Source: Salinicoccus carnicancri Crm | GTDB lineage: Bacteria > Bacillota > Bacilli > Staphylococcales > Salinicoccaceae | Direction: 5' to 3' | DNA length: 64,000 nucleotides | NCBI RefSeq assembly: GCF_000330705.1 | Contig: NZ_ANAM01000001.1 | Coordinates: 310,001-374,000, forward strand | Shown here: positions 21,155 through 24,868 of the stretch, in pieces | Layout of the letters: each line of letters opens with the position of its first letter | How positions within the stretch are numbered: position 1 is the first letter of the stretch | Translations under genes and position numbers: made by a program | Notes under the pieces: model-generated | The model's database searches: none | What the model was told of the DNA's origin: nothing | What the model saw: only the letters and a program-made list of their open reading frames with translations

Positions 21155-21207
21155 TTGTGACATTCAGTAAACATCTTTATAATGTTATATGTATACTAGC
21201 GGTATAC
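21155..21207 (+). promoter_or_regulatory. Promoter of the sulfolipid locus with GTATAC repeat
   Basis: TTGTGA (21155-21160), 17 bases, TATAAT (21178-21183). At the start-site region (21191-21207) lies GTATACTAGCGGTATAC, two self-complementary GTATAC boxes separated by five bases; it may be an operator, though no regulator is linked. Confidence 0.7.
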
Positions 21208-21247
21208 TATGTATAAATTAACTAATACTGAAGCGGAGGATGTTCAA

Positions 21248-22396
21248 ATGAGAATTATTGTAGCTGGGGGAGACGGTTTCTGCGGATGGCCGACTGCACT
21301 CTATCTATCTGAAAAGGGTCACGAAGTGACTATCCTGGATAACATGGTACGTCGTAAAATAGATAATGAATTGCATTCCAACTCTGTTACGCCGATTGCC
21401 TCTTTGGAGGATCGTGTAGAGAAATGGAAGGAATTGACAGGAAAAGAGATTAAAATCTATGAAGGCGACCTCAACCACTATGACTTCCTGAGTCTCGTAT
21501 TCAAAAACGAACGCCCGGAAGCATTCGTGCATTTCGCAGAACAGCGTTCAGCACCTTATTCCATGATCGATCGTGAACATGCGGTCTATACGCAGCAGAA
21601 CAACGTATTGGGCAACCTCAACGTTCTATATGCAATCAAGGAATTCGAACCTGACTGTCATCTGATCAAGCTCGGTACGATGGGTGAGTACGGTCAGCCG
21701 AATATCGACATCGAAGAAGGTTACATTGAAATTGAACATAAAGGACGGAAAGATACGCTGCCGTTCCCTAAACAGCCGGGTTCCTTCTATCACCTGACGA
21801 AAGTGCATGATACGCACAATATCATGTTCGCATGTAAGATTTGGGGCATCCGTGCAACGGACCTGAACCAGGGCATCGTTTACGGACTCAACACCGAAGA
21901 AACGAAAAAAGACCCTGCGCTTGCGAACAGGCTGGACTATGACGGCGTATTTGGAACCGCACTCAACCGTTTCCTCATCCAGGCAGCAATCGGCCACGAT
22001 ATGACAGTGTATGGTTCAGGCGGCCAGACGCGTGCATTCCTGCACATCAAAGACACAGTGCGCTGCATTGAGATCGCAGCGGAAAACCCCGCCGATCAGG
22101 GCGAATTCCGCGTGTTCAACCAATTCACGGAATCCTTCTCTGTACAGGATCTCGCTGAAAAGACAAGGGATGCCGCAAAGGAGCTCGGCATCGATGCCAA
22201 CGTTGCGAATATCGAAAATCCGCGTGTTGAAAATGAAGACCATTACTATAATGCGGTCAACACCAACCTGATCGATCTTGGTCTTGAGCCGCATCTCCTG
22301 ACCCAGGACGTCCTGAAGGAAATTCTTCAGGAAGCAATCGAACATAAGGACCGCATCATCGTGGACAATGTGCTGCCGACAGTTACGTGGAAGTAA
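21248..22396 (+). CDS. sqdB: UDP-sulfoquinovose synthase homologue (SQD1/SqdB)
   Basis: Extended short-chain dehydrogenase (382 residues) that in plants and cyanobacteria makes UDP-sulfoquinovose from UDP-glucose and sulfite. The SQD1 N-terminus [20 protein letters not shown] is unmistakable, with the NAD-binding GGDGFCG at 7-13, [11 protein letters not shown] (Thr144) as the substrate threonine and the catalytic YHLTK (Tyr181, Lys185). ATG is 7 bases after GGAGGA; the upstream in-frame ATG at 21209 lacks a site. Directly followed by the SQD2-like transferase. Sulfite source genes are not linked. Confidence in the family is high; the product lipid is inferred. Confidence 0.92.
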
Positions 22397-22412
22397 AGAA
22401 AGAGGTAATGGC

Positions 22413-23549
22413 ATGAAGATTGCGATTGTCACCGAAACATTTTTGCCGTCGACAGACGGTATTGTTACAAGATTGACAAAAGCCATTGACTACTTCATGC
22501 GGGAGGGGCATGAGGTCCTGGTCATCGCGCCTGACCTCGGCGTGCATGATTATAAGGGGGCAAGAGTGGTCGGTATCAAACCGGTCACTTTCCCTTTTTA
22601 CAGATACCGCAAATGGGGTTTTCCTTCCCGCAGGGTATATCATATACTGAAAGATTTTGAACCGGATGTCGTGCATGCAGTCAATCCTGTCCTGCTTGCG
22701 ACAAGTGCTGTCAGGGCAGCACAGAAGCTCAATATACCGCTCGTTTCTTCATACCATACGCACCTGCCGAAGTACCTGGATTACTATACAGTCTATAAAC
22801 CCGCTAAACCTCTGCTCTGGTGGTACATCAGACGCAACCATAAAAATGCAGACCTCAATCTGGTCACCTCCCGCGCAATCAGGGATGAACTGGATGCCGA
22901 AGGTATAAAACGCCTGGATATCATTCCCCGCGGAGTGGATGTGATAAACCGTCATCCCGGTTTCAGGGACAATGAGATGCGCAACAGGCTGAGCGGCGGC
23001 AAACCGGAAAACAAACTGCTTGTGTTCATAGGAAGGCTTGCCGTGGAAAAAGAAATCCATAAGCTTCTGCCGCTACTCGATGCCCGGGAGGATATCAGCC
23101 TGGCAATTGTCGGCGATGGCCCCGCACGTAATGAAATCGAGAAGAAGTTTGAAGGCACGAATACCGTGTTCACCGGTTTCATGCACGGTGAAGAACTGTC
23201 GAAGGCATTCGCCTCCGGCGATGCTTTCATATTCCCGTCCGTGTCGGAGACGCTGGGACTTGTCATACTTGAATCCATGGCTTCAGGCCTGCCTGTCATC
23301 GCCGCCAAGAGCGGACCGACAAACGAACAGGTCACTGATGGAGTGAACGGCATGCTTTTTGAGAACGAGGACCTGAAGAGCATGATCAGAGCCGTGGAAG
23401 TATTGGAAGATGAAGATAAGCTTGCCGAGATGAAACAGAACGCCCGCAGGGAAGCGATGGGCTACGCCTGGGACAAGACGTCCCAGAGACTGATTGATTT
23501 TTACATGGATGCGAGAGACAGGCATTCGACGGGTGACAAAAAGGCTTGA
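22413..23549 (+). CDS. sqdX: Glycosyltransferase family 4, SQD2/SqdX-like
   Basis: GT4 retaining transferase (378 residues). N-terminal domain starts MKIAIVTETFLPSTDGIVTRL and contains SSYHTHLPKYLDYY, the acceptor-side motif seen in sulfoquinovosyl- and glucosyl-diacylglycerol synthases; the C-terminal donor domain has FIGRLAVEKEI and the E-x7-E motif in SETLGLVILESMASG. GT4 members of this look also include mannosyl and glucosyl transferases, but adjacency to an SQD1 homologue (16-base gap) points to transfer of sulfoquinovose to diacylglycerol at the membrane. No transmembrane helices; peripheral membrane attachment likely. Confidence 0.85.
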   Translation: MKIAIVTETFLPSTDGIVTRLTKAIDYFMREGHEVLVIAPDLGVHDYKGARVVGIKPVTFPFYRYRKWGFPSRRVYHILKDFEPDVVHAVNPVLLATSAVRAAQKLNIPLVSSYHTHLPKYLDYYTVYKPAKPLLWWYIRRNHKNADLNLVTSRAIRDELDAEGIKRLDIIPRGVDVINRHPGFRDNEMRNRLSGGKPENKLLVFIGRLAVEKEIHKLLPLLDAREDISLAIVGDGPARNEIEKKFEGTNTVFTGFMHGEELSKAFASGDAFIFPSVSETLGLVILESMASGLPVIAAKSGPTNEQVTDGVNGMLFENEDLKSMIRAVEVLEDEDKLAEMKQNARREAMGYAWDKTSQRLIDFYMDARDRHSTGDKKA

Positions 23550-23566
23550 TAAAGGATGTGTAAGTG

Positions 23567-24868
23567 ATGAGAATGGTGGATTTGATAGCAAAGAAGCGCG
23601 ATGGCGGAGTTTTGACGAAAGAGGAGATCGATTTCTTCATCAAAGGCTACACGGCTGGGGATATACCTGATTACCAGGTATCCAGTCTGATGATGGCTTT
23701 ATTCTTCCGGGATATGACCGAGGATGAGCGGGCGGATCTGACGATGGCAATGGTCAGATCGGGGGATGAAATCGACCTTTCATCAATTGAAGGTATAAAA
23801 GTGGACAAGCATTCCACGGGCGGTGTAGGTGATACAACCACACTCGTCCTGGCCCCGCTCGTGGCGGCACTCGATGTGCCTGTTGCGAAAATGAGCGGCC
23901 GCGGACTCGGTCATACCGGCGGTACCATCGACAAGCTCGAGGCAGTGGAGGGGTTCCATGTCGAGATTACTGAGAAGGAATTCGCAGATATCGTCAACCG
24001 GGACAAGGTGGCGGTGATCGGCCAGTCCGGCAATCTGACACCAGCCGACAAAAAACTTTATGCCCTGCGTGATGTGACGGCGACGGTTAACTCTATCCCA
24101 CTGATTGCAAGCTCGATCATGAGCAAGAAGATCGCTGCCGGGGCCGATGCAATCGTCCTCGACGTCAAAACAGGCGACGGTGCATTCATGAAGAGCGAAG
24201 AGGATGCTGTTGAACTTGCCAGGGCGATGGTATCCATCGGCAACAACGTGGGCAGAAAGACGATGGCGATCATTTCAAGCATGGCGGAACCGCTCGGCCA
24301 TGCCATCGGTAACGCCCTTGAAGTGAAAGAGGCGATTGAAACGCTCCGCGGGGAAGGGCCTGAAGATCTGACTGCCCTCTGCATGGAGCTCGGCGCCCAG
24401 ATGACGGTGCTCGGCGGCAAGGCGGAAACGCTCGACGAAGCGAAAGAAAAGCTGCATCAGGTCATCGATGACGGCAGTGCGCTTGAAAAATTCAAAGTGT
24501 TCCTGTCCAACCAGGGCGGTGACGCATCTGTTGCGGATGATGTTTCAAAACTGCCGCAGGCACAGTATAAAATTGAAGTGAAGGCGGAGTATTCAGGATA
24601 CGTCGAAGAGATTGCCGCTGAGGAGCTTGGTGTTGCTTCGGCGATGCTTGGTGCCGGACGGCAGACAAAAGATGATGTCATCGACCTTGCGGTCGGTCTG
24701 ATGCTCGAGAAGAAAGTCGGCGACCGTGTGGAGGAAGGCGAGACACTGGCTGTTATCCACTCAAACCGGGAAAATGTAGGGGATGTCAAAGATAAAATCC
24801 TCGATAACTACAAAATAGGCGATAAAGAAGTGAACATCTCACTCATCAAACAGGTGATCACTGAATAG
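23567..24868 (+). CDS. pdp: Pyrimidine-nucleoside phosphorylase
   Basis: Cleaves uridine, thymidine or deoxyuridine with phosphate to give the base and (deoxy)ribose-1-phosphate; 433 residues. The start [14 protein letters not shown] is the family norm and lies behind AAAGGATG. Signature [19 protein letters not shown], phosphate site [17 protein letters not shown] and the C-terminal biotin-like domain (KLYALRD, then [16 protein letters not shown]) are complete. It lies 17 bases after the sqdX-like gene, so it probably shares its transcript, an odd partnership for a salvage gene. Confidence 0.95.

Follow-up and report, generated by a model that had tools for sequence, protein, structure and literature searches.

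A putative sulfolipid gene pair, sqdB-sqdX, in Salinicoccus carnicancri: descent, promoter element and a GtrA-like partner in relatives

Introduction

Sulfoquinovosyl diacylglycerol (SQDG) is commonly presented in teaching as belonging to photosynthetic membranes. Here we describe two adjacent genes of Salinicoccus carnicancri Crm, sqdB and sqdX, which very probably direct the synthesis of this lipid from a promoter of their own and under a probable dedicated regulator. They lie in a window of 64,000 nucleotides, namely positions 310,001 to 374,000 of the forward strand of contig NZ_ANAM01000001.1 (assembly GCF_000330705.1); all coordinates below are those of the window, and all mapped features of the locus are on its forward strand.

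The closest described systems are found both in and outside photosynthetic organisms. SQDG is among the listed polar lipids of Oceanobacillus massiliensis (PMC4062624), sulfoquinovosyl lipids occur in Acididesulfobacillus acetoxydans (PMC8982180), SQDG was quantified in Paenibacillus polymyxa (PMC6878767), and Bacillus coahuilensis carries sqd1 and sqdX, its sulfolipid being reported as 'data not shown' (PMC4744853). The latter is the same gene pair in a Gram-positive organism, likened here by its published description. SQDG and sqd1/sqdX in Bacillota are already published, and the Salinicoccus pair is a further member of a known pathway. Literature searches pairing Salinicoccus or Marinococcus with sulfoquinovosyl, or Salinicoccus with sulfolipid, returned no paper, nor did the combination of sulfoquinovosyl, Firmicutes and sqdB, and the results for sulfoquinovosyl with Alicyclobacillus were unrelated by title. 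Sprott et al. (2006) reportedly named SQDG as a major lipid in both Marinococcus halophilus and Salinicoccus hispanicus, in agreement with the mention of SQDG for Salinicoccus in the first-pass annotation; a search on these two species together gave one paper, unrelated by title.

Results

The sqdB gene

Comparison with the plant enzyme identified the gene at 21248-22396 (382 amino acids), by homology, as that of the UDP-sulfoquinovose synthase SqdB/SQD1. Residues 2-382 align without a gap to Arabidopsis SQD1 (1qrr/1i24) with 238 of 381 positions identical (62%, E-value 6.5e-170), while the next solved family in the PDB follows at an E-value of 5.8e-10. Catalysis by SQD1 involves a threonine, a tyrosine and a lysine; all three were said to be intact in the first-pass annotation, and T144, Y181 and K185 indeed align with the Arabidopsis residues. 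Y181 and K185 are invariant in nine of nine aligned Bacillota SqdB sequences, and position 144 is either threonine or serine. The length and the NAD motif GGDGxxGW are likewise shared with the plant and cyanobacterial proteins. Although the longer, mechanically called open reading frame (ORF) opens with an ATG at 21209, the most likely start is the ATG at 21248, because the Shine-Dalgarno sequence GGAGG at 21235-21239, 8 bases ahead, serves the latter; GGAGG is present at the matching place in 18 of the 19 loci of the family (Salinicoccaceae), the exception being L043.

The sqdX gene

The second gene (22413-23549, 378 amino acids) starts 16 bases past the sqdB stop codon and encodes, by homology, an SqdX-type UDP-sulfoquinovose:diacylglycerol sulfoquinovosyltransferase of glycosyltransferase family 4 (GT4). 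A GT4 enzyme beside SqdB is also the cyanobacterial arrangement, in which, however, the gap between the two genes often amounts to hundreds of bases. With 28 transferases from cyanobacterial SqdB loci the window protein scored 327-376 bits, as against 58 bits with the best solved GT4 structure and 41 bits with the highest-scoring other protein encoded in the same genome. Each of the 18 further family loci has an SqdX directly behind SqdB, and an SqdX-like glycosyltransferase was detected in the retrieved stretch of 61 of 80 relatives.

A quick tree of 74 rows, with the approximate likelihood ratio test SH-aLRT as the sole support measure, placed all 52 SqdB-linked transferases (the window and 51 others, cyanobacteria included) on one side of a branch with support of 99. 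One of the 22 other GT4 rows, on a long branch, fell on that same side, and the other 21 lay opposite. Within the SqdB-linked group the window protein belongs to a Bacillota clade of its own (support 96). The rows comprise every second cyanobacterial sequence (14 of 28); 4 of the 26 outgroup loci tried and the loci left out of the SqdB tree described below are omitted, and four further glycosyltransferase loci stand outside the outgroup set. Thus, the transferase groups with the SqdX enzymes, in a clade defined here by SqdB-linked transferases; a place outside that clade was what the first-pass annotation had named as refuting its reading.

Several observations weigh against the assignment of the pair. 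SqdB scored 489.7 bits against the NCBIfam model NF041015 and so stayed below its cut-off of 575; as Arabidopsis SQD1 (484.7 bits) and two cyanobacterial SqdB proteins (464.1 and 474.8 bits) score under it too, this cut-off does not discriminate. Among the curated profiles, that of GlcN-PG synthase matched SqdX best, at 180.5 bits under a cut-off of 480 (MGlcDAG synthase followed with 111.6 bits under a cut-off of 400), and the matches listed for the transferase, the best 25 of 46 families, contained no SqdX model. Plant SQD2 is not among the rows of the SqdX tree, the acceptor specificity of a GT4 enzyme is not safely readable from its sequence, and 19 of the 80 SqdB loci, 12 of them cyanobacterial, had no SqdX-like gene in the retrieved stretch.

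Five SqdB relatives without an SqdX-like gene in that stretch are non-cyanobacterial (L054, L055, L056, L115 and L119, with 55-63% identity; L054 and L055 belong to one family, f94). These may use another transferase or carry sqdX elsewhere.

Proposed pathway

The genome of S. carnicancri contains cysH and cysN, both above the subfamily cut-offs, and a second match to the PAPS-reductase family that adjoins cysN and fits cysD. With these genes present, sulfite for SqdB should be obtainable from sulfate. In the pathway that we propose, CysDN and CysH would convert sulfate to sulfite, SqdB would form UDP-sulfoquinovose from UDP-glucose and sulfite with NAD+, and SqdX would transfer the sulfoquinovose to diacylglycerol at the membrane, yielding SQDG. 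This phosphorus-free anionic lipid could then replace phosphatidylglycerol.

GT4 enzymes are known for very diverse acceptors, and UDP-sulfoquinovose might instead be destined for a surface glycan or glycoprotein, the transferase decorating a polymer and not diacylglycerol. Such a use has a precedent in Sulfolobus acidocaldarius, where a UDP-sulfoquinovose synthase is reported to supply N-glycans; there a UDP-sulfoquinovose synthase supplies these glycans (PMC12890257). We consider this extremely improbable for Salinicoccus, as the transferase clusters with its counterparts from cyanobacterial SqdB loci, as several Bacillota are reported to contain SQDG or sulfolipid (PMC4744853, PMC8982180, PMC4062624, PMC6878767), and as a scan of six neighbouring proteins revealed no protein for glycan export. 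Synthesis of SQDG thus remains the preferred function of the pair.

Distribution and descent

SqdB was found in all 12 genomes of the genus, in 19 of 33 genomes of the family (three of six genera), in 20 of 150 genomes sampled from the order and in 7 of 398 genomes of a sample of the phylum, one of these seven at only 39% identity. The E-values together with conservation across the 19 family genomes rule out chance as the source of the match.

In the SqdB tree the window sequence lies in a Staphylococcales group (support 95) inside a Bacillota group of 24 rows (support 99). The enclosing group of 36 rows (support 99) adds two sequences from Rubrobacter, one from Chloroflexota and one from Pseudomonadota, and the cyanobacterial and acidobacterial rows stand apart; in this separate, Bacillota-centred clade the window SqdB differs from its cyanobacterial counterparts. 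The closest relatives outside the order are those of Halobacillus, Pontibacillus and Oceanobacillus (support 84 in the SqdB tree and 99 in the SqdX tree). L057 (38-39% identity), L058 (on a contig shared with L076), L059-L061 (all Salinicoccus) and 13 of the 18 further family loci were left out of the SqdB tree. Path distances in the SqdB and SqdX trees correlate over the 52 shared loci, with a Mantel r of 0.82 as against values of at most 0.14 in 999 permutations. The two genes appear to have been inherited and lost as one unit.

A recent transfer from cyanobacteria to Salinicoccus was rejected, as SqdB and SqdX both sit in the Staphylococcales group within the Bacillota-centred clade. Gain at the tip was rejected likewise: the pair occurs in four genera from two of the order's families, and L051 and L052 have it next to hlyIII and proC, which is also its setting in the window. 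Loss from other genera is a better fit than a tip gain, and transfer within the order may have contributed to the spread of the pair.

Transcription unit and promoter

In the window sqdB and sqdX are followed by a third co-directional gene, pdp (23567-24868), and the three are bounded by two hairpins. The upstream one, at 21069-21096, is a terminator-like structure 3' of a TRAP transporter gene, detected by the terminator scan with a fold of -22.9 kcal/mol (z -6.28), and is predicted to part that gene from the sqd transcript. The downstream one is an inverted repeat followed by a T run at 24880-24902, a likely terminator; the inverted repeat is absent from the list of the terminator scan, and folding of 24872-24915 gave -20.4 kcal/mol (z -4.41).

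A sigma-70-type promoter-like site, TTGTGA-17-TATAAT, was detected at 21155-21183 with 10 of 12 matches to the consensus, in a scan that yielded 9 promoter-like sites in the region as against 5.4 in shuffled sequences. Its TATAAT is present at the matching place in all 19 family sqd loci. Position 21155, at which the first-pass annotation let the locus begin, is that of the -35 hexamer; the neighbouring, same-direction gene pair that it had reported there is confirmed by the coordinates given above, and its interpretation as an SQDG pathway is supported by the sequence comparisons.

Seven bases separate TATAAT from the element GTATAC-TAGCG-GTATAC (21191-21207), a candidate operator at the predicted transcription start. 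In all 19 family loci the element begins 6-7 bases past TATAAT, the spacer between the arms measures 3, 4 or 5 bases, and the sole changed arm is GTATGC in L050; the element is absent from L052, which belongs to another family of the order. The pattern GTATAC-N3-6-GTATAC matches only at the sqd site in 8 of the 12 genus genomes. In the other four, six extra matches were found, all of them inside ORFs of at least 104 codons and two at the same gene (G024 and G026), so that in 12 of 12 genomes no exact copy other than the sqd element lies outside a longer ORF. The backward control pattern is commoner than the pattern itself (31 versus 18 matches in the 12 genomes, 5 versus 1 in S. carnicancri); match counts alone therefore prove nothing, and the case rests on position and conservation.

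We interpret the element as a probable dedicated operator at the predicted transcription start, to which a dedicated regulator probably binds, and a phosphate or salt signal is a possible cause of such control. No shared GTATAC regulon was found; the extra exact matches in the 12 genomes all lie within longer ORFs.

The arms of the element are self-complementary, with a loop of 3 to 5 bases between constant arms, and even the deviant GTATGC could still pair through G-U. It might accordingly act in the RNA, as a 5'-terminal hairpin affecting stability or translation of the message, in place of a DNA operator. This we regard as rather unlikely, given that the two leaders folded were no more stable than shuffled sequences (z -0.04 and 0.06) and that the arms are constant in their letters, with no compensatory changes across the 19 loci, which suits protein binding better. 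An operator thus stays the favoured interpretation of the element.

A search of the 12 genomes for TGTATACTNGCGGTATACT with up to 3 mismatches gave 16 further matches, four of which were inspected. Two of the four lie in one coding gene (G024 and G026). The other two, each with 3 mismatches, are intergenic and just 5' of a lipoprotein gene in G023 and G027 (L224 and L216, near position 1501); they could be a second target of the same putative regulator, or chance.

The pyrimidine phosphorylase and neighbouring genes

The pdp gene encodes a protein of 433 amino acids that scored 729.7 bits against NF004747 (pyrimidine-nucleoside phosphorylase; cut-off 559). Starting 17 bases past the sqdX stop, it had been described in the first-pass annotation as a likely, and unexplained, third cistron. 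The sqd genes would most likely be transcribed from their own promoter jointly with it. The phosphorylase is encoded in every one of the 33 family genomes, including 14 that lack SqdB. In the eight of these 14 that were examined it likewise precedes UDPGP and hlyIII, and proC comes next in six. As it is present in family genomes with and without sqd, the phosphorylase is an old neighbour and not an enzyme of the pathway, and the sqd pair lies upstream of an old gene row. Outside the family, locus L052 of the same order (Staphylococcales) has the gene order sqdB, sqdX, NUDIX gene, UDPGP, hlyIII and proC without a phosphorylase.

That the phosphorylase is a functional third member, for example in recycling uridine from the UDP released by SqdX, would agree with its place behind SqdX in each of the 18 further family loci and with the likely terminator found only after it. 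This is nevertheless very improbable in view of the 14 family genomes that keep the phosphorylase without SqdB, of the eight inspected sqd-less genomes in which it precedes UDPGP and hlyIII, and of the loci outside the family (L052-L058, L062-L138), none of which has a phosphorylase in the retrieved stretch. Most consistent with the data, pdp is probably co-transcribed with sqdB and sqdX and outside the lipid pathway.

The UDPGP gene (24980-26122), encoding a UDP-sugar pyrophosphorylase, comes next behind the phosphorylase in 14 of the 18 family loci, and wherever it is found in family loci it is followed by hlyIII. Considered as a supplier of UDP-glucose, it was not adopted as one: its closest solved relatives are UDP-N-acetylglucosamine pyrophosphorylases, and it lies behind the phosphorylase in all eight inspected sqd-less genomes. 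In L052 a NUDIX hydrolase gene (L052:5879-6358) occupies the place behind sqdX at which family loci have the phosphorylase.

Upstream of the sqd promoter, 17326-21062 encodes a TAXI-type TRAP transporter consisting of a binding protein, a small gene, which we take to be DUF1850, and a fused permease, with matches in part of the family loci. Membership of these genes in the sqd operon was rejected on account of the intervening terminator and of the 8 of 18 family loci (L034, L044-L050) that have no TRAP match upstream.

A GtrA-like third gene in relatives

Clustering of neighbouring genes and a scan with a profile of the ORFs in 105 loci (L034-L138) revealed a GtrA-like gene that recurs near sqd, always on the strand of sqdB, in 16 distinct records (L053, L066-L072, L075, L076, L083, L085, L086, L090, L103 and L110). 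Among the 80 loci it is present in 13 of 24 Bacillota outside Salinicoccus and in 2 of 2 Rubrobacter, L053 being additional, and in none of the 40 cyanobacteria, 7 Acidobacteriota, 3 Salinicoccus and 4 others. All nine proteins submitted to Pfam, of the 16, matched PF04138 above the cut-off. The resulting sqdB-sqdX-gtrA cassette of Marinococcus, Gracilibacillus, Planococcus, Desulfosporosinus, Rubrobacter and others contains the same two enzymes, of the same SqdB and SqdX lineage, as the window; Marinococcus halophilus (L072) is one of its carriers. Salinicoccus, Halobacillus, Pontibacillus and Oceanobacillus differ in that the linked GtrA-like gene is absent.

The gene is located ahead of sqdB in L053 and L075, between the pair in L110, and behind sqdX in the remainder except L103, in which it follows sqdB and sqdX is upstream; because the order varies, the link is taken to reflect function and not a frozen arrangement. 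Against 27 other GtrA rows the 16 proteins group as a single clade (support 100/97), L058 and 3 of 30 generic GtrA loci that lacked a profile match being omitted from this tree, and their branching, judged by eye, broadly tracks that of SqdB and SqdX. Phylogeny and gene neighbourhood thus indicate that in Bacillota and Rubrobacter the GtrA-like gene has been inherited along with sqdB and sqdX as the third gene of such cassettes. The single GtrA gene of the Salinicoccus genome lies beside a PgfS-like transferase and reached only ~7-10 bits with the cassette profile, with which generic GtrA proteins of some other Bacillota scored up to 94 bits.

The predicted fold consists of four long helices (pLDDT 79.7). 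By sequence and by structure it matches best to the membrane domain of dolichyl-phosphate mannose synthase (profile E-value 1.1e-4; Foldseek E-value 0.012, a weak match). As that domain belongs to the glycosyltransferase chain in the synthase, docking of SqdX is suggested; as GtrA proteins of other systems are proposed flippases for lipid-linked sugars, flipping of SQDG is suggested likewise. A literature search for GtrA with sulfoquinovosyl gave nothing relevant, judging by titles and the beginning of abstracts.

Discussion

The sqd pair of Salinicoccus is in itself no surprise, and what deserves to be followed is the promoter element, together with the GtrA-like partner found in the relatives. 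Tentatively, and with less than even confidence, we propose that the SQDG pathway outside photosynthetic bacteria has a dedicated third component, a four-helix GtrA-like membrane protein which docks SqdX at the membrane or flips SQDG to the outer leaflet, that the lineage of Salinicoccus, Halobacillus, Pontibacillus and Oceanobacillus dropped this protein, and that in the Salinicoccus family the pair came under the control of an operator of which the genomes contain no second exact intergenic copy.

The GtrA-like gene of the relatives would be a concrete candidate for a missing step of SQDG docking or flipping, and the promoter element opens a route to finding the regulator. A lineage of halophilic Gram-positive cocci that has kept sqdBX by vertical descent may furthermore offer a simple, non-photosynthetic system for learning what SQDG is for, be it phosphate saving, coping with salt, or both.

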